From the NCBI RefSeq assembly GCF_000826145.2, contig NZ_LN651337.1, positions 3,774 through 67,773 on the forward strand: a DNA stretch of 64,000 bases. Reading direction: 5' to 3'. The DNA comes from Sporosarcina koreensis. Its GTDB lineage: Bacteria > Bacillota > Bacilli > Bacillales_A > Planococcaceae. Shown here piece by piece: positions 6,644 to 62,081 of the stretch (positions are counted from its first letter, which is position 1; every line of letters starts with the position of its first letter). The position numbers and the translations under genes are program-made. Below the pieces are notes generated by a model that saw only the letters and a list, made by a program, of their open reading frames with translations, was not told the origin of the DNA and ran no database searches.

Positions 6644-7462
6644 ATGACACGGCAATGGGAAACGCTTCATACATATGAAGATATTAAGTATGAAAAGTAT
6701 AACGGCATCGCTAAAGTGACGATCAACCGTCCGGAAGTGCGCAACGCATTCCGCCCGAAGACGGTTACAGAAATGATCGATGCATTCTCACGAGCACGCG
6801 ACGACGAGAGCATCGGGGTCATCATCCTCACTGGCGAGGGAGAGAAAGCATTCTGTTCCGGCGGCGACCAGAAAGTCAGAGGTCATGGCGGATATGTCGG
6901 AGACGACGAAATTCCGCGCTTGAACGTACTGGACCTCCAGCGCCTGATCCGCGTCATCCCGAAACCGGTTGTTGCGATGGTTTCCGGATTTGCTATCGGC
7001 GGCGGCCATGTGCTGCATGTTGTCTGCGATTTGACGATCGCTGCGGACAATGCAATCTTCGGCCAGACGGGTCCGAAAGTCGGCTCATTCGATGCCGGTT
7101 ATGGCTCGGGTTACCTGGCACGTATCATCGGCCACAAGAAAGCCCGTGAAATCTGGTATCTGTGCCGTCAGTACGACGCACAGCAGGCACTTGATATGGG
7201 ACTCGTCAATACAGTCGTTCCGTATGAACAACTGGAGGATGAAACCGTTCAGTGGTGTGAGGAAATGCTCTCCATGAGCCCGACGGCACTCCGGTTTGTC
7301 AAAGCAGCCATGAACGCGGACACGGACGGTCTTGCAGGTCTCCAGCAGATGGCGGGGGATGCGACACTTCTGTATTACACAACCGACGAAGCGAAAGAGG
7401 GACGGGATGCATTCAAAGAGAAGCGCAAGCCGGACTTCGGCCAATTCCCAAGGTTCCCTTGA
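6644..7462 (+). CDS. menB: 1,4-dihydroxy-2-naphthoyl-CoA synthase
   Basis: Crotonase-fold enzyme closing the naphthalene ring of o-succinylbenzoyl-CoA. Visible are the [13 protein letters not shown] oxyanion/active-site region, the GGGHVLH motif and the C-terminal [13 protein letters not shown] segment typical of MenB. The protein is 272 aa, the usual length. GAGGAGG is 7-9 nt before the ATG at 6644, right after the menH stop. A terminator separates it from menE. Confidence 0.96.
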
Positions 7463-7473
7463 TAAATACAGAC

Positions 7474-7502
7474 AAAAACTGCCGATACCGGCAGTTTTTT
7501 GT
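7474..7502 (+). terminator. Terminator between menB and menE
   Basis: Stem AAAACTGCCG/CGGCAGTTTT with a short loop and a T-run, 12 nt after the menB stop. menE may be expressed by read-through or from its own promoter. Confidence 0.8.
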
Positions 7503-7521
7503 TTAGGAAGGAGCATGTCCA

Positions 7522-8991
7522 ATGATACCTAATTGGCTGATGAAACGGGCATCCCTCAGCCCGGAAGCGCCGGCACTTTCATTTGAAGGGGAAACGCTGT
7601 CCTATGCGGAACTGTATGACCGGGCTATGGACCATGCAGGGAAACTGCGGGCCGCCGGACTGCACGCGGGAAGCCGGGCAGCCCTGCTCGGCGGAACTTC
7701 CGCGGAGATGGCTGTCCTCATCCATGGCTGCCTGCTGGCAGGTGTTGAAATGGTCCTCCTGAACGTCCGTCTGACAGCGGAGGAAATCGGATATCAGCTC
7801 GGCGATGCGGCGGCCGACCTGCTGATCTGCGAAGATTTTTGCATACCGCAGACCGGTTCTGCAAACTGTGGTGCGCTTTCCTACAGCGACTTCAGCAGAC
7901 TTCCGGCACACCCCGTGGAACCGGAGAGAGAGTGGCAGGACGACCGCACCCTCACCATCATGTACACATCCGGCACGACCGGATTTCCAAAGGGTGTTCG
8001 CCAGACGGCGGGCAACCATACTGCCAGTGCAGTGTCGGCAGTCCTGAACAGCGGTCTGCGGGACGGGGATGCCTGGCTCCATATGATGCCGCTGTTCCAC
8101 ATCAGCGGCTTCTCGATACTCGCGAGGGCAGTGCTGTATGGTACGGAGGTGCGGCTGTTCCGTAAATTCGACGCATATCTCGCCGCGGAGGAAATCGGCA
8201 GCGGCCGGGTATCGGGCATGTCTGCGGTGGCCGTCACACTGGAACGGCTGCTGACGGAGTTCGAAAGAAGCGGACGGACCGTGCCCGAAACGTTCCGCAC
8301 ATTGCTTGCCGGCGGGGGACCGGTGCCCGTCAATTACCTGGAGCGGGCGCAGCGGATCGGTCTGCCGGTCCTGCAGACATACGGGATGACGGAGACCAGT
8401 TCGCAGACCGCCACCCTGTCAGCAGGAGATGCCCTCCGCAAGATCGGGTCCGCCGGGAAGCCGCTGTTCTTCTCGGATATCCGGATCGAGGGAGCGGCCG
8501 GGCCCGGCAGCAGGGGGGAGATATTGATCCGGGGACCGCACGTGACGAAAGGGTATGTCGGCCGTCATTCCGGAAAAGGTGCCCTGCAGGATGGATGGCT
8601 CCATTCCGGGGACATCGGTTATTTCGACGAGGACGGCTTCCTGTTCGTCTCCGACCGCCGAAGCGACCTGATCATCTCGGGCGGGGAAAACATCTACCCT
8701 GCTGAAATCGAGGAAGTGCTCGCCGCGCATCCCGCCGTCAAAGAGGCCGGCGTCTGTGCTATGCGGGATGAGAAGTGGGGGGCTGTGCCTGCTGCATTCA
8801 TCAAGACGACCGGACCGCAGCAGCTTGACCCTGAGGACCTGGAAATCTTCTGTAGGGAGCGGCTGGCCGCCTATAAAGTTCCGAAGGTATTCCGTTTCAT
8901 CGAGGAGATGCCGCGCAACTCATCGAATAAGCTGATGCGCAGCAGACTCCGTGAACTGGCTGCGGACGAAAACGTGGATAGACAGCATTAA
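7522..8991 (+). CDS. menE: o-Succinylbenzoate--CoA ligase
   Basis: AMP-forming acyl-CoA ligase that activates o-succinylbenzoate for MenB. The 489-aa adenylating enzyme carries the P-loop YTSGTTGFPKGV around residue 150, TYGMTETSSQ, the LHSGDIGYFDEDGF motif and the C-terminal lysine region SSNKLMR. GGAAGGAG lies 8 nt upstream of the ATG. In Bacillus subtilis menC follows menE; here a terminator and a convergent zinc-transport gene follow instead. Confidence 0.93.
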   Translation: MIPNWLMKRASLSPEAPALSFEGETLSYAELYDRAMDHAGKLRAAGLHAGSRAALLGGTSAEMAVLIHGCLLAGVEMVLLNVRLTAEEIGYQLGDAAADLLICEDFCIPQTGSANCGALSYSDFSRLPAHPVEPEREWQDDRTLTIMYTSGTTGFPKGVRQTAGNHTASAVSAVLNSGLRDGDAWLHMMPLFHISGFSILARAVLYGTEVRLFRKFDAYLAAEEIGSGRVSGMSAVAVTLERLLTEFERSGRTVPETFRTLLAGGGPVPVNYLERAQRIGLPVLQTYGMTETSSQTATLSAGDALRKIGSAGKPLFFSDIRIEGAAGPGSRGEILIRGPHVTKGYVGRHSGKGALQDGWLHSGDIGYFDEDGFLFVSDRRSDLIISGGENIYPAEIEEVLAAHPAVKEAGVCAMRDEKWGAVPAAFIKTTGPQQLDPEDLEIFCRERLAAYKVPKVFRFIEEMPRNSSNKLMRSRLRELAADENVDRQH

Positions 8992-16025: not shown

Positions 16026-16208
16026 ACTCTTATCCCGAGCTGGCGGAGGGACAGGCCCTATGATGCCCGGCAACCTGCACAGACGTCCTTGTCTGTGAGA
16101 AGGTGCCAAACCTGAAGCAGGGATCACTCCCTGGACGATAAGAGTGAAAGGTGCCTGTAAACATATGCCTTTCCTCATGTATGCGATACGTGAGTGAGAG
16201 GCTTTTTC
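16026..16208 (+). promoter_or_regulatory. SAM-I (S-box) riboswitch with terminator, metK leader
   Basis: The aptamer runs from ACTCTTATC (16026) to GATAAGAGT (about 16145), closing P1. It contains the S-box core AGCTGGCGGAGGGACAGGC, CCTATGATGCCCGGCAACC and AAGGTGCCAA. The expression platform is a terminator hairpin GCCTTTCCTCATGTAT / ATACGTGAGTGAGAGGC with T-run at 16167-16208. High S-adenosylmethionine would stop transcription before metK, a feedback loop on its own product. Confidence 0.93.
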
Positions 16209-53609: not shown

Positions 53610-53734
53610 TTTGAGAAGCCACCTTCGGGGTACGGATCCGGCCAACGTGCGGACATTTGCGGGAAAGTCCGAAAAAACAGCCGGTTTTCGTGTATACGAT
53701 AAGTATATCACTGAAACCGTTTACAGAAAAACTA

Positions 53735-53763
53735 TTGACAGCGGAAAAAAACGCGTTTACTAT
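53735..53763 (+). promoter_or_regulatory. Promoter of the NhaC transporter gene
   Basis: TTGACA (53735-53740), 17-nt spacer, TACTAT (53758-53763). The shared tandem motif begins directly downstream at 53769. Confidence 0.75.
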
Positions 53764-53768
53764 TCCAA

Positions 53769-53791
53769 TAACGACTAATTAGCGACAGTTG
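53769..53791 (+). promoter_or_regulatory. Tandem RCGAC operator, site 1
   Basis: AACGACTAATTAGCGACAGT. Two RCGAC half-sites start 11 bp apart in the same direction, just after the -10 box, the position of a repressor site. A close relative occurs at site 2 (about 56622-56645). Confidence 0.7.
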
Positions 53792-53826
53792 TTTCTAGTC
53801 TGATAAATCGAATGGGGTGGAGCTGT

Positions 53827-55305
53827 ATGGAGAAAAACATAACTCGTGAAAAACGCGAAATCAATTTCTGGATGGCACTGCTGCCGCTGGTCATCATGAT
53901 CCTCGTCATGCTCGTAACCGTCGTCTGGCTGGGGCAGGGCCCGCATATGCCGCTGATCCTCGGTACGTCTGTTGCGTCATTGGTAGCCTGGAAATACGGA
54001 TTCACGTGGAAAGAGATAGAGGAAATGATGTACAAAGGGATCCGTCTGGCGCTTCCGGCTGTTGTCATCATCATGCTTGTCGGTTTGACGATCGGTGCCT
54101 GGATGGGCGGCGGAATTGTCGCGACTATGATCTTCTACGGATTGAAATTGATAACACCCGCATGGTTCCTCGTCGCCATCATGATCATCTGCTCGATCGT
54201 CTCCCTTGCAATCGGCAGCTCCTGGTCGACAATGGCGACCATCGGTGTTGCCGGAATGGGAATCGGGCTCAGCATGGGGATTCCTGCCGGCATGGTTGCC
54301 GGGGCAGTCATCTCAGGTGCTTATTTCGGTGATAAAATGTCACCGCTTTCAGACACGACCAACCTGGCTTCCGGATTGACAGGAACCGATCTTTTCGATC
54401 ATATCAAGCACATGCTGTATACGACAGTGCCGGCACTGCTGATTGCGTTCGGCGTCTTCACGTTCCTCGGCCGGCGCTTTGCGGACGCCCATCTGGAACT
54501 CGGCCAGATCGCACAGACTTCGAAAGTCATGCAGGAGAGCTTCCTGATCTCCCCATGGCTGCTGCTTGTCCCGCTGGCCGTCATTATGATGGTCGCCATG
54601 AAAGTGCCGGCTGTCCCTGCACTCATCGTCGGGATCCTCATGGGCTTCCTCAGCCAGATCTTCATCCAGGGCGGAACGGCGACAGACGCCCTGACGGCAC
54701 TGCAGGAAGGTTTTTCAATCAATACCGGTAACGAACTTGTCGACAACCTGTTCGACGGCGGCGGACTCGACTCCATGATGTACACCGTCTCGATGACGAT
54801 CGTCGCCATGACATTCGGCGGTATCCTCGAGTATTCAGGTATGCTGAAAGCCATCATGGATCAGCTGATGAAAGTCGTGAAGTCGACGGCTTCCCTTATC
54901 ATCTCGACGATCGGCGCCTGCATCATGACGAATACGACGTGTGCAGAACAGTATATTTCCATCGTCGTTCCGTCACGCATGTTCAGCCGTGCGTATAAAG
55001 ACAAAGGGCTGAGTTCGAAAAACCTGTCCCGCGCTTTGGAAGACGGCGGAACGCTCACGTCGGTCTTCATCCCATGGAATACGTGCGGGGTGTTCATCCT
55101 CGGGACGCTTGGTGTCGGGGTGACGGAATACGGTCCGTATGCGATCATCAACTTCGTCGTGCCGATCTTGTCCATCATCTATGCGCTGACTGGATTCTCG
55201 ATCGTCAAAATGTCAGACACCGAGCGGCGGAAAATGGAGGAGCAGGATGCGAAGCTGCTTGAGAATCCCGAAATGGAAGAGGATCAGATGCCGGCGCACT
55301 CCTGA
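53827..55305 (+). CDS. nhaC: NhaC-family Na+/H+ antiporter-like transporter
   Basis: 492-aa membrane protein with about 12 segments and the family motifs SIGSSWSTMATIG-like (AIGSSWSTMATIGVAG) and GAYFGDKMSPLSDTTNLASG. GGGTGGAG precedes the ATG at 53827. NhaC members exchange Na+ for H+, but others carry organic acids or amino acids. The shared operator with an epimerase/acetyltransferase operon suggests this one imports that operon's substrate. Confidence 0.88.
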   Translation: MEKNITREKREINFWMALLPLVIMILVMLVTVVWLGQGPHMPLILGTSVASLVAWKYGFTWKEIEEMMYKGIRLALPAVVIIMLVGLTIGAWMGGGIVATMIFYGLKLITPAWFLVAIMIICSIVSLAIGSSWSTMATIGVAGMGIGLSMGIPAGMVAGAVISGAYFGDKMSPLSDTTNLASGLTGTDLFDHIKHMLYTTVPALLIAFGVFTFLGRRFADAHLELGQIAQTSKVMQESFLISPWLLLVPLAVIMMVAMKVPAVPALIVGILMGFLSQIFIQGGTATDALTALQEGFSINTGNELVDNLFDGGGLDSMMYTVSMTIVAMTFGGILEYSGMLKAIMDQLMKVVKSTASLIISTIGACIMTNTTCAEQYISIVVPSRMFSRAYKDKGLSSKNLSRALEDGGTLTSVFIPWNTCGVFILGTLGVGVTEYGPYAIINFVVPILSIIYALTGFSIVKMSDTERRKMEEQDAKLLENPEMEEDQMPAHS

Positions 55306-55318
55306 ACACAGTGAAATA

Positions 55319-55367
55319 CCTGCCCGATGTCACCAGTCAGCCGGTGACTTCGGGCAGGTTTCTTTTT
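55319..55367 (+). terminator. nhaC terminator
   Basis: Stem CCTGCCCGA-GTCACC / GGTGACTTCGGGCAGG with TTTCTTTTT after it. Confidence 0.83.
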
Positions 55368-56607
55368 AATAGACCGGAAAGTTCAGTTCGTATACCGCCC
55401 GCGGCCGTCCCTGCCGATAGGTCATCTCCTCGCCGATCGTCCGGATATACTCGAAAGGCAATAGTTTTTTGATGGTCCGCTCGGCTGTCCGCCTTGAAAC
55501 ACCGAGATAGTCAGCCAGGTCGTTGGCCGTGAACTGCAGGGTGTTCTGGTTTTGACCGAACGAGGTGAGCTTCGATAATACCGCAGGGCTTAAAGCCGTC
55601 TGTTCTGCAATCTCGGTGAGCGCCGTCCCGGTGACGCGGAGTTCGATGGCGTCTCCGCCTATCTTGTACAGATTACGCAGGTTTTTCTTATCATCCAGCA
55701 GATAGAGACCGTCCGGATGCTCGACCTTCATGTACCCCAGTGCGCTTTCGGCGTTTTCTTTTGCAGCCGTCAGCGTGTGGCCGATTCCGAACGCAAGCAT
55801 CCCTTCCGCACTGCGGGCCGTCTGCTGGAACTCCGGCAGCTGGACGGCCGCGCGGATGGCGCCTTGTGTCGTGTATAGAAGTGCGCCGTCCCCATTATCG
55901 AAATGATGGGCATGCAGCAGCCGGGCCAGCCGGTTCACAATATCCCCGCTGTCTGTCAGGCGGCTGTCGGCCTGAAGGATGCCGACAGCCGCTTTCGTCG
56001 TTTCGCTTTTTTGATAGAGGGCTTCCTGGCATAACGCATCGACGGCTTTCAGAAATGAGCTTTTGACATTGATCATCTTGACCGCAGGAAGACCGGACGA
56101 CACGAGACGGTCATAGGCGGCGTGGACACTTGTCACGGCAAGGCGGGCACAGCCCGACTTCAGAGCGTCTGCATGGAACGCGACGATGTCTTCCAGCCTG
56201 TATTTTTCATCCAGCACGTGCACAGCCGGCCAAACCTCAGAAGGGGCGCTGGCTGTCAGGACGTTTTCGAGGACCGTCTTGTCGCGGACATCGATGGACA
56301 GCCCGGAAAGCGGAATCCTCCGATGCAGTGCAATCGACAGAAGTGTCGCCGCGATTTCCGTCTCGTCCTGTTTCATGTAGACGGCAGGCACGGGAATCGT
56401 TTTCAACGCCCCTTCGGCTGCCATATAGGGGAGTGATCCCGAAAAGAGGATCGCGTCACACGGCCGCAGTTTCTTCAGAAGCCCGGGCGATTGTTCCGGC
56501 ACCTCATAGGGATACAGCTCCAGTGAAATATCAGGTCGATGTTCGGTGAACTCCTCCGCCCGTCTGCAAAAAGACTCCGAACCAATAATGGCAATTTTTG
56601 TTTTCAA
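55366..56607 (-). CDS. Transcriptional regulator with sensor domain and C-terminal winged helix
   Basis: About 413 aa. The N-terminal half resembles a PrpR_N-like ligand-sensing domain. A middle region (FDNGDGALLYTT...GMLAFGIGHTLTAAKENAESAL) recalls a degenerate GGDEF/GTP cyclohydrolase III fold. The C-terminus is a helix-turn-helix with wing (NDLADYLGVSRRTAERTIKKL then YRQGRPRAVYEL). TTG at 56607 has AAAGGTGG 8 nt upstream; GTG at 56619 overlaps it. It is divergent from the epimerase and is the natural candidate to bind the RCGAC sites. Domain names are by eye. Confidence 0.78.
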   Translation of the reverse strand: MKTKIAIIGSESFCRRAEEFTEHRPDISLELYPYEVPEQSPGLLKKLRPCDAILFSGSLPYMAAEGALKTIPVPAVYMKQDETEIAATLLSIALHRRIPLSGLSIDVRDKTVLENVLTASAPSEVWPAVHVLDEKYRLEDIVAFHADALKSGCARLAVTSVHAAYDRLVSSGLPAVKMINVKSSFLKAVDALCQEALYQKSETTKAAVGILQADSRLTDSGDIVNRLARLLHAHHFDNGDGALLYTTQGAIRAAVQLPEFQQTARSAEGMLAFGIGHTLTAAKENAESALGYMKVEHPDGLYLLDDKKNLRNLYKIGGDAIELRVTGTALTEIAEQTALSPAVLSKLTSFGQNQNTLQFTANDLADYLGVSRRTAERTIKKLLPFEYIRTIGEEMTYRQGRPRAVYELNFPVY

Positions 56608-56621
56608 TGAATTTTCCACCT

Positions 56622-56645
56622 TTATAATTAGCGACTATTTAACGA
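56622..56645 (+). promoter_or_regulatory. Tandem RCGAC operator, site 2
   Basis: TAGCGACTATTTAACGACAAT in the regulator/epimerase intergenic region. It aligns with site 1 (53769) at about 16 of 20 positions with the same 11-bp spacing of RCGAC. Confidence 0.7.
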
Positions 56646-56695
56646 CAATGATACACTACATATAAGCGCTTGCCAATGGAAAGGGAGAAAACTTT

Positions 56696-57811
56696 ATGAA
56701 AATTCAAGAAGTGGAAATTTCAGCAATCCGTCTGCCGCTGCATGATCCGTTTGTCATCAGCTATGCGACGTACGAAGATATGCCGTCCATCATCGTCAAA
56801 CTGACGACGGATACAGGAATAACAGGCTATGGGGAGGCTGTGGCGGATGACCACGTGACGGGTGAAAGCTGGGAAGGCACCTATGCAGTACTGAAGCACA
56901 CACTGGCTCCTGCCGTCCTCGGACTGTACCCTGGAGAGTTCGAGCGTCTGCATGACGTCATGGACAAAGCGATATACGGGGTGCCGACCGCCAAGGCAGC
57001 GATCGACATCGCCTGCATGGATGCTGTTGGCAAGGCGCTTGGGGTCCCTGCTTACCAGCTGCTCGGCGGGCGGTATCATGATCGTTTCCCGATCACCCAT
57101 GTGCTCAGTATCGGTGAACCGGATGCTATGGCGGCAGAGGCTGCCGGGCGGATCGAAGCGGGCTACCGGTCATTCAAGATGAAAGTCGGGACCGAAGCAC
57201 GGGAGGATGTCAGGAGAATCCAAGCCGTCCGGAAACGGGTCGGTGACGACATCGCCATCCGTGTCGACGTGAACCAGGGCTGGCAGAACAGCGCGGTGAC
57301 CCTGCAGGCCTTGAAACAGCTGGAGGACTGTCATCTGGACTGGCTTGAACAGCCAGTGAAAGCGGACGATATCGATGGCCTAGCGGAGGTGAAGCAGAAG
57401 AGCGCAACCCCACTTATGGCAGATGAAAGCCTCCGCGGCATGAAAGAGATGCGGGACATCATCGCGAAGCGTGCGGCTGACAAAGTCAATATCAAACTCA
57501 TGAAATGCGGCGGTATGTATCCGGCCATGAAACTGGCCCATATGGCGGACATGGCTGGCATCGACTGCCAGATCGGCTCGATGGTCGAGTCATCGATCGG
57601 CTCGGCAGCGGGTTTCCACGTCGCGTTCTCGCAGAAGGCGATTACGAGCGTGGAGCTGACAGGTCCTTTGAAGTTCAGCAAGGATGTTGGTGATCTGCAC
57701 TACGACGTGCCGTTCATCTGCCTGAGCAGCAAGCCGGGACTCGGTGTCGATGTCGATGAGGCTGTCTTGGCGGAGCTGACCGTCTTCAAGGACAAAGTGA
57801 CTGCCTTATGA
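56696..57811 (+). CDS. Enolase-superfamily epimerase (dipeptide epimerase-like)
   Basis: 371-aa muconate-lactonising-subgroup enzyme. Catalytic acid/base Lys161 and Lys163 (FKMKVG), metal ligands Asp191 (VDVNQG), Glu218 (EQP) and Asp243 (ADES), and Lys267 (NIKLMK) are all present. The scaffold is closest to Ala-Glu epimerase (YkfB). At the place of that enzyme's Asp-x-Asp, which holds the dipeptide amino group, this protein has Glu320-Leu-Thr322, so the substrate may differ. AAAGGGAG precedes the ATG. The stop overlaps the acetyltransferase gene. Confidence 0.85.
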   Translation: MKIQEVEISAIRLPLHDPFVISYATYEDMPSIIVKLTTDTGITGYGEAVADDHVTGESWEGTYAVLKHTLAPAVLGLYPGEFERLHDVMDKAIYGVPTAKAAIDIACMDAVGKALGVPAYQLLGGRYHDRFPITHVLSIGEPDAMAAEAAGRIEAGYRSFKMKVGTEAREDVRRIQAVRKRVGDDIAIRVDVNQGWQNSAVTLQALKQLEDCHLDWLEQPVKADDIDGLAEVKQKSATPLMADESLRGMKEMRDIIAKRAADKVNIKLMKCGGMYPAMKLAHMADMAGIDCQIGSMVESSIGSAAGFHVAFSQKAITSVELTGPLKFSKDVGDLHYDVPFICLSSKPGLGVDVDEAVLAELTVFKDKVTAL

Positions 57812-58494
57812 AGACAGTCAAACTGAAGGACGGCACCCGGCTTCCTGTTGAACTGCTGACGATCAATGACCTGCCTGACATCAAGCGGCTGCAGGAAGAA
57901 GTCATTGGCGGCCTGGCGGAAAAAGCATTTCTCCAGCCGCTGACGGATGAGGAATTCATCTGCATCCTGGAAGGGAACGGAATAATTGCAGGCGTCCGAG
58001 CCGGGGCCCGCCTGATAGCGTTCCGGGCATTGCTCGATCCGGGGGAAGACCCGGAGCACCTCGGAAGGGACGCCGGTATTCCATCAGATGAATGGCAGTC
58101 CGTCCTGTACTCGGAAATAACGAATGTGTCACCGGACTATCAGGGAAATGGAATCCAGCTCCAGCTCGGCCGGATAGTTCTCGATACAGTGGATACGGAT
58201 CGGTTCAATTATCTATGTACGACCGTCTCTCCTTTCAACATCGCGAGCCTTAAGGACAAGCTGGCACTCGGCATGCACATCGCATCGCTGACCGTGAAAT
58301 ACGGAAACTTGACCCGTTATGTCATGCTGAAATACTTGGCTGGCGAACTCGAATTGGCTGATGACGACCCGGTCGATCTGCCGATGGAGGATACGCAGGC
58401 ACAGCAGGAGATCCTGGGGGCAGGCTGGATCGGCACTGCCATCCATGAAGAGGGCGGTACATGGATGGTCCGATACCACAAGGAACGGAAATGA
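57808..58494 (+). CDS. GNAT-family N-acetyltransferase-like protein
   Basis: 228-aa protein with a GNAT-type core: SEITNVSPDYQGNGIQLQLGRIVL is the acetyl-CoA-binding region (Q/R-x2-G-x-G/A type) and NYLCTTVSPFNIASL follows. The ATG overlaps the epimerase stop (ATGA), so the two are co-translated. An acceptor is not known; the partner epimerase suggests an amino acid or dipeptide amine. Confidence 0.78.
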   Translation: MKTVKLKDGTRLPVELLTINDLPDIKRLQEEVIGGLAEKAFLQPLTDEEFICILEGNGIIAGVRAGARLIAFRALLDPGEDPEHLGRDAGIPSDEWQSVLYSEITNVSPDYQGNGIQLQLGRIVLDTVDTDRFNYLCTTVSPFNIASLKDKLALGMHIASLTVKYGNLTRYVMLKYLAGELELADDDPVDLPMEDTQAQQEILGAGWIGTAIHEEGGTWMVRYHKERK

Positions 58495-58528
58495 TGCAGC
58501 AAAATCGGCTTAGCAGGCAGTAAAACGA

Positions 58529-58573
58529 AACGGACTTCCAGGGACCGGCCGGGTTCCTGGAAGTCCGTTTTTC
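58529..58573. terminator. Bidirectional terminator
   Basis: Stem AACGGACTTCCAGG / CCTGGAAGTCCGTT with T-run, after the acetyltransferase and facing the YfhD-like gene. Confidence 0.87.
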
Positions 58574-61850: not shown

Positions 61851-61925
61851 ACAGCACTTCCGGGTGCAGAAGAAAACACTATACAAACAATTTAGAAATG
61901 GTATACTGGTCAGTAAATGAATATG

Positions 61926-62081
61926 CTTATCAAGAGAAGCTGAGGGAACTGGCCCTATGACGCTTCAGCAACCCCTGGATGATCCAGGAAGGTGCTACTT
62001 CCACAAGACTTTGTCTTGAGAGATAAGATGGACGTTACAGAACTCCCGCTATCTCTCAAGAGACTGGCGGGAGTTCTTTTG
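61926..62081 (+). promoter_or_regulatory. SAM-I (S-box) riboswitch with terminator, metA leader
   Basis: P1 CTTATC (61926) pairs with GATAAG (about 62028). The core AGCTGAGGGAACTGGCCCTATGACGC, CAGCAACCC and GAAGGTGC are S-box elements. The terminator AACTCCCGC / GCGGGAGTT with TCTTTT spans 62041-62081. SAM would stop metA transcription. Confidence 0.93.

Follow-up and report, generated by a model that had tools for sequence, protein, structure and literature searches.

A tandem operator shared by a PrpR_N-like regulator gene, an NhaC-family transporter gene and a predicted N-succinyl amino acid racemase-acyltransferase operon in Sporosarcina koreensis

Conversion of D- to L-amino acids by three enzymes, a GNAT succinyltransferase, an N-succinyl-amino acid racemase and an L-desuccinylase, was reportedly described for Geobacillus kaustophilus by Sakai et al. 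in 2006. A further related enzyme is the Bacillus cereus N-succinyl-Arg/Lys racemase, said to be the subject of Song et al. 2007 and which we take to be the protein of PDB entry 2p88 (also 2p8b/2p8c); the biological role of racemases of the 2p88 type has so far been judged from enzyme data and from the context of their genes. The NSAR/L-succinylase of G. kaustophilus is mentioned in PMC7431475, Song et al. 2007 (doi 10.1038/nchembio.2007.11) is cited in PMC4215206, and a link between lysine riboswitches and LysW proteins of the NhaC type is described in PMC5584792. The present analysis concerns a cluster of four genes in a stretch of 64,000 nucleotides from Sporosarcina koreensis, hereafter the window, in which a gene for an NhaC-family transporter (nhaC) converges with a regulator gene, and the latter diverges from an operon encoding an enolase-superfamily racemase and a GNAT-fold acyltransferase. 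The control regions of these genes share a tandem operator.

Compared with the G. kaustophilus trio, the cluster and its relatives comprise the same three kinds of enzymes, the M20 amidohydrolase being encoded in 35 of 80 relatives of the window cluster, whereas the window racemase is of the 2p88 kind and is accompanied by a dedicated regulator, a tandem operator and an NhaC- or YfcC-type transporter. With the B. cereus racemase the window enzyme shares 68% identity, the same catalytic residues and the segment ELTGPLKF, at which dipeptide epimerases deviate, but regulator, operator and transporter are not linked to 2p88 in the literature searched. An earlier reading of the window, made from its sequence only, had known of no described system with this set of genes. 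This has to be qualified for the enzymes, which are of known kinds and reportedly described as a trio in G. kaustophilus, while regulator and operator are apparently undescribed, as no description of them or of the regulon was found in the literature searched, subscription papers being mostly outside its reach. LysW lysine transporters resemble the window transporter in their NhaC superfamily membership and their link to basic amino acids; they stand under lysine riboswitches, whereas the window nhaC would apparently be controlled by a DNA operator (PMC5584792). Riboswitch control of nhaC was considered and rejected: neither the window nor any of the nine relatives searched showed a lysine riboswitch that reached the gathering score.

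The window holds two exact copies of the motif RCGACTANTTARCGACA, one at 53771-53787 and the other at 56631-56647, each on the + strand, and no further match even if up to three mismatches are allowed. Since such loose matching is expected to give a mean of 1.03 chance hits per window, the strength of the observation lies in both copies being exact. Operator 1 (AACGACTAATTAGCGACA, 53770..53787, + strand) consists of two units with an 11-bp period and lies 6 bp after the predicted nhaC -10 box, and operator 2 (AGCGACTATTTAACGACA, 56630..56647, + strand) lies 1 bp after the predicted + strand -10 box in the regulator-racemase gap and abuts the one on the - strand. The two operators have 17 of 23 bases in common and each holds an 11-bp direct repeat, in agreement with the sequence-only reading, which had noticed the same motif just past the nhaC -10 box and in the gap between the regulator and the gene it called an epimerase, as well as the 11-bp tandem period. 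In the source genome as a whole, which comprises 2.9 Mb in 5 contigs and is 93% complete, exact matches to the 16-base core RCGACNANTTARCGAC are confined to the two operators, and a single one-mismatch match lies outside them. Allowing two mismatches raises the total to 24, compared to 126 for the reversed control, and the loose matches are therefore attributed to chance.

The presence of the operator follows that of the regulator. When the window's family (101 genomes) was searched for the regulator, a relative at E<=1e-10 was found in 63 genomes; in 48 the best match reaches E<=1e-52 and the next genome follows at 8e-21, and because of this gap the 48 genomes are treated as holding an orthologue. 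A strict pattern, ARCGWCTAWWWARCGWCA, scanned across the same 101 genomes with the reversed pattern as control, gave 41 sites in 32 genomes compared to 6 for the control. It is present in 32 of the 48 regulator-bearing genomes and in none of the 53 others (Fisher p about 1e-14, a value that overstates the evidence because the genomes are related). By coordinates, 40 of the 41 sites lie at the cluster, and the 41st (genome G014) shortly precedes an M20 gene that is not linked to it.

The same picture emerges from the named loci, a set formed by the best 80 of 165 confirmed regulator relatives and drawn from Sporosarcina, Psychrobacillus, Lysinibacillus, Viridibacillus, Rummeliibacillus, Kurthia, Cytobacillus, Siminovitchia, Heyndrickxia and other genera. 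Of the sets of rows used, A1 joined 20 loci to the window, A2 joined to it 61 of the 80 named loci (leaving out L148 on account of a stop codon in its regulator) and A3 46 of the 75 named loci with a GNAT gene. A racemase is encoded in 77 of the 80 loci, a GNAT protein in 75 and an NhaC match, in some cases a fragment, in 67. In the regulator-racemase gap, or upstream of the regulator, the best match to ARCGACTATTTARCGACA, a consensus derived from these very loci, has at most three mismatches in 76 of the 80. The exceptions are L128 and L138 (4 mismatches each), L139 (6 mismatches, none of the other three cluster genes being seen there) and L148 (7). Letter-shuffled 90-bp gaps reach three mismatches in 2 of 4,000 trials. 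Upstream of nhaC (n=67), the operator consensus is matched with at most three mismatches in 47 loci, with four in 2 and with five or more in 18; the operator of L125 has three units. Absence of the motif at orthologous genes, which would have refuted the sequence-only reading, was thus not observed for the regulator-racemase gap (76 of 80) or for most nhaC genes (47 of 67), and the four genes are kept together among the relatives. In L148 (Lysinibacillus endophyticus, 7001-8239), where the interrupted regulator gene stands in a locus with no racemase or GNAT match, the regulator-side operator is missing, yet the nhaC operator is kept with 2 mismatches.

A further pattern, ARCGACTAWWWARCGACA, was scanned with a control in 398 genomes across the class and gave 41 sites in 34 genomes compared to a single control hit; 39 of the 41 sites stand in front of a racemase gene, a gene for a transporter of the NhaC/YfcC type or an M20 amidohydrolase gene. 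The window's family holds 17 of the 41 (16 at the cluster, 1 at the M20 gene), and 15 lie about 40 bp upstream of a racemase match in family f16, where the sites, like most of those in Lysinibacillus, were placed by coordinates and not by reading the sequence. In seven further cases the gene behind the site encodes a racemase (G527; distant racemases in G361 and G311), a transporter of the YfcC type (G361, G343, G247) or NhaC (G384). The last two sites, both in G536, adjoin a relative of the regulator; one is followed by a gene for a solute-binding protein and the other by a stretch of open reading frames with a dipeptide-type ABC ATPase gene. In Lysinibacillus, a variant, ARCGACRTATTARCGAC, is present in 30 of 32 genomes, with one extra copy before an unlinked YfcC-type transporter (L317). 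Where racemase and GNAT genes occur without the regulator, either alone (L264-L267), with an M20 gene (L268, L269) or in an NhaC-racemase-GNAT operon (L254, L255, L257), no tandem was found at the genes of these nine loci, the only match, in L255, lying inside another gene. The possibility that the paired motif arose as a chance repeat is rejected on the genome, family, named-locus and class scans. In L254 (2129-8787) the regulator-less operon adjoins genes for a sigma-54 activator and glutamate dehydrogenase, neighbours that would perhaps link it to amino acid breakdown.

The position of the operators suggests how they might act. A consensus scan predicts promoters, each matching 10 of 12 positions, for nhaC (TTGACA-17-TACTAT, 53735..53763, + strand), for the racemase gene (TTTTCA-16-TATAAT, 56601..56628, + strand) and for the regulator gene (TTGGCA-17-TATCAT, 56648..56676, - strand), although each single match is weak evidence, as the 3.1-kb stretch scanned gave five matches compared to 2.4 expected. 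Operator 2 is placed between the two divergent -10 boxes. Among relatives, the operator starts 6-9 bp past the best nhaC -10 box in 42 of 49, and its 17-base core starts 1 bp past the best regulator -10 box in 49 of 71 gaps. Because the operators follow or overlap the predicted start regions of the promoters, we infer a repressor-type position. The catabolite regulator CcpA recognises the consensus TGWAANCGNTNWCA, and a cre-like site without mismatch to it (TGAAACCGTTTACA, 53712..53725, + strand) lies upstream of the nhaC -35 box. With at most one mismatch, such a site precedes nhaC in 36 of 49 named loci with the tandem motif and in 5 of 18 without it. From the centre of the cre-like site to the operator, the distance in those 36 loci is 49-53 or 59-62 bp, two spacing classes that differ by about one helical turn. 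Shuffled nhaC upstream sequences reach this in 18 of 1340 trials. CcpA can activate from such upstream positions, and a second layer of control at nhaC is a lead offered by these predicted sites.

The regulator gene (55366..56619, - strand) encodes a protein predicted to consist of a PrpR_N-like sensor (residues 4-204), a middle domain and, at the C-terminus, a winged helix (331-412). In the structure prediction (pLDDT 84.6, pTM 0.60) the N-terminal fold matches 2q5c with Z 16.5 over 185 aligned residues and PrpR (2pju) with Z 16.3 over 178, the next entries scoring about 10. The C-terminal winged helix matches 6cmv with Z 8.7, and HTH_11 scores above its cut-off. PrpR_N is matched in 25 of 62 regulator homologues at E<=0.1 and is absent from the window regulator's own Pfam list. 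For residues of about 208-316, the GGDEF-like proteins WspR, PleD and PA3702 are listed only with an rmsd of 16-23 across two domains. The predicted sensor fold is that of PrpR and the PrpR_N sensors (2pju, 2q5c). Unlike PrpR, the window regulator has no Pfam match to the AAA+ sigma-54 interaction domain at E<=1, nor is there a hit among its homologues, and it carries the middle domain and the winged helix. More distant relatives of the regulator stand beside AbgT and M20 genes (L190), beside a membrane-protein-like gene and an M20 gene (L191), or adjoin a distant racemase and an N-carbamoyl-amino acid/allantoate-type amidohydrolase (L310, L312); given these neighbours, the wider regulator family may read N-acyl amino acids generally. 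No tandem motif was found in the examined gaps of L190-L192.

The racemase gene (56696..57811, + strand) encodes an enolase-superfamily enzyme of the 2p88 type, predicted to be an N-succinyl basic amino acid racemase, whose identity to 2p88 extends over 367 residues. Its KMK motif at 161-163 (K161/K163), K267 and D191/E218/D243 align as in 2p88, the lysines presumably being the acid/base pair and the three acidic residues the metal ligands. In a search aimed at the assayed B. cereus enzyme, the best racemase identities among the 398 class genomes were 72-76%, so that no genome carrying that enzyme seems to have been sampled. Identity as a dipeptide (L-Ala-D/L-Glu) epimerase was rejected on the A_G_epim model (195.3 bits, cut-off 500), on PRK15129 (95 versus 343), on the match to 2p88 and on the segment ELTGP, which stands where 1jpm has FDAP. 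The DxD motif is the dipeptide-binding motif of dipeptide epimerases. The enzymology of the sequence-only reading has to be corrected; it overlooked both the solved 2p88 relative and the M20 amidohydrolase of related loci; 33 of the 35 M20 genes in the named loci directly adjoin nhaC or the regulator gene, and two examples exceed an amidohydrolase subfamily cut-off.

The GNAT gene (57808..58494, + strand) overlaps the racemase gene by 4 bp and encodes a predicted N-succinyltransferase; the protein has no Pfam match, and its structure model (pLDDT 94.9) matches RimI (2cnm, E 8.1e-9, TMt 0.80), PaiA and other GNATs. The transporter gene (53827..55305, + strand) reaches 453.8 bits on TIGR00931 (cut-off 370), although passing this equivalog cut-off does not fix the substrate, and 375.9 bits on the model of the arginine/ornithine antiporter ArcD, below its cut-off of 650. 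The alternative YfcC-type transporters score 345-422 bits on 'putative basic amino acid antiporter YfcC' (cut-off 500), and the M20 protein has a hit below cut-off on the DoeB2 model, a further hint of basic amino acids. Taken with LysW and the neighbours in L254, these sub-threshold model scores point to basic amino acids as the candidate substrate class.

The reading preferred here, to which a probability of roughly 0.58 is assigned, is a regulon for the salvage of D- to L-basic amino acids under a local repressor. The substrates would be D-amino acids with basic side chains, such as D-Arg, D-Lys, D-ornithine or similar, and their passage through the membrane, or that of an exchange partner, would be the task of NhaC. 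Using succinyl-CoA, the GNAT protein would succinylate the amino acid at its alpha-amino group, the racemase would interconvert the N-succinyl D and L forms, and the M20 amidohydrolase, encoded beside the cluster in many relatives and represented in the source genome by a best relative elsewhere, would cleave the L form only and so pull the flux to the free L-amino acid. The divergent regulator may bind the 11-bp direct repeats, which overlap the likely transcription starts of nhaC, the racemase-GNAT operon and the regulator gene. It would repress all three until its PrpR-like domain binds an inducer, probably an N-succinyl amino acid. The analysis shows the gene content, the conserved operator and its tie to the regulator, and the predicted folds; binding, repression, ligand, substrate and direction are inferred. 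The sequence-only reading had proposed that one regulator controls uptake and conversion of the substrate, and the tie of a shared operator to local regulator, uptake and conversion is supported. Its order of reactions, epimerisation followed by acetylation, is not, since enzymes of the racemase family take N-acylated amino acids as substrates, so that the GNAT protein most likely acts first. Given the M20 gene beside the cluster in many relatives and the pairs of racemase and L-succinylase that serve L-amino acid production (PMC7431475), the likely order is succinylation, racemisation and hydrolysis.

A number of points weigh against this reading. ARCGWCTAWWWARCGWCA is absent from 16 of the 48 regulator-bearing genomes, and a looser tandem was found in 15 of these and not in the remaining one (G043, locus L077), using patterns picked after the data had been seen and neighbouring genes called by sequence likeness. 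Six of the 16 are Lysinibacillus genomes carrying ARCGACRTATTARCGAC, and in four more the gap or the region before the regulator contains a different variant (L055, L063, L068, L078). In the last six the regulator and racemase starts lie very close, with no operator between them (L066, L070, L072, L073, L077, L319); in five of these a tandem lies past the other end of the regulator, either before an M20-like gene (L066, L072) or before a YfcC-like gene followed by an M20-like one (L070, L073, L319), and L077 has the YfcC-like/M20-like pair with no tandem match. That five of six seemingly operator-less loci have an operator before such genes strengthens the regulon in turn. Also to be counted against it are the scoring of ARCGACTATTTARCGACA on its own source loci and the 18 of 67 nhaC upstream regions without an operator, which comprise 15 of 17 Lysinibacillus and all 3 Viridibacillus loci. 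On the enzymatic side, none of the NCBIfam enzyme models listed for the racemase passes its cut-off, and the succinyl specificity of the GNAT protein and the activity of 2p88 are presumed. Where the M20 gene lies directly upstream of nhaC, no operator was found in its own upstream region. The best M20 relative in the source genome (C4:1198679) is 46% identical, unlinked to the cluster and has no tandem operator near it, so the desuccinylation step is not located in that genome.

Several other explanations have to be considered for the operator itself. In Bacilli, ArgR classically controls genes for basic amino acids, and the tandem motif could be bound by a global regulator such as ArgR/AhrC or CodY, the divergent gene being a mere neighbour. 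This is very improbable, as the strict motif is missing from every family genome without the orthologue, occurs at few sites per genome, is not found at the racemase-GNAT pair of the nine regulator-less loci, and follows distant regulator relatives to other gene sets (L260-L263, L310-L314). Even less credit can be given to a conserved leader or RNA element in place of a protein-binding operator, for which the location of the motif just past the predicted -10 boxes, near or within the 5' ends of transcripts, would speak: two divergent promoters share the motif, so that opposite strands of it would appear in the two transcripts, its form is that of a direct repeat and not of a hairpin, no Rfam family matches it in the window, and its presence is tied to the regulator gene. 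If the local regulator is the binding protein, it might also act as an activator or in a dual manner, as PrpR is an activator and effectors can switch the sign of regulation. Activation is judged quite unlikely, because the operators overlap or follow the likely starts of three predicted promoters with fair -35 and -10 boxes, unlike those of sigma-54 activators, and because an AAA+ domain match is lacking.

As to the pathway, the regulon could be real and run in reverse, from L to D (for instance for wall editing or biofilm release), or use another N-acyl group, such as N-acetyl or N-carbamoyl, with NhaC as exporter. Racemases are reversible, the position of the cre-like site, typical of CcpA activation, could suit export under carbon excess, and the different amidohydrolase sets beside the regulator relatives in L310, L312, L190 and L191 suggest that the acyl group may vary. 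This variant is nevertheless held to be unlikely, since the nearest solved relative of the racemase, 2p88, is taken to be an N-succinyl-Arg/Lys racemase. Furthermore, the M20 amidohydrolase of the related loci argues against the reversed direction, as pairs of a racemase and an L-amidohydrolase are employed for one-way production of L-amino acids (PMC7431475).

Beyond the salvage regulon, a wider proposal can be made, with slightly less than even odds: an undescribed family of one-component regulators across Bacilli may read N-acyl amino acids and, via RCGAC-n6-RCGAC 11-bp repeats, govern interchangeable sets of transporters, racemases and amidohydrolases, with CcpA possibly acting at nhaC from a helically phased site. 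If this were true, the interchangeable sets would allow the operator alone to predict N-acyl amino acid racemisation pathways genome-wide, and related pathways could be found with the motif from sequence alone. The operator ties together racemase, acyltransferase, transporter and a likely desuccinylase and allows a simple in vivo test, and a widespread and apparently undescribed regulator family is opened to ligand identification.

Further features were observed at the cluster and around it. Where nhaC and the regulator gene converge, an inverted repeat (55318..55359, 17-nt arms, 94% complementary) is a possible shared terminator, although the terminator scan did not flag it, and another after the GNAT gene (58528..58570, + strand, 19-nt arms, 95% complementary) is a possible terminator as well. 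In the Lysinibacillus nhaC upstream regions without a tandem (for example L118, L128 and L132), another strongly conserved stretch, TTTTGCGTTGACTTT...AATATTAAGCTAAAAA, is perhaps the site of a different regulator. The source genome contains a paralogous cluster (L058, 2142-7449, contig C4 near 1,573,000) with a regulator relative, a YfcC-type transporter, an M20 gene and a racemase 58% identical to that of the window; between its regulator and transporter genes lies a degenerate tandem, GCGTCCATATACCGAC, the same loose pattern having 12 other matches in the 13-kb stretch. Elsewhere in the window there are an array of 8 tRNA genes (10-684) and two SAM riboswitches (16027-16144 and 61924-62029).

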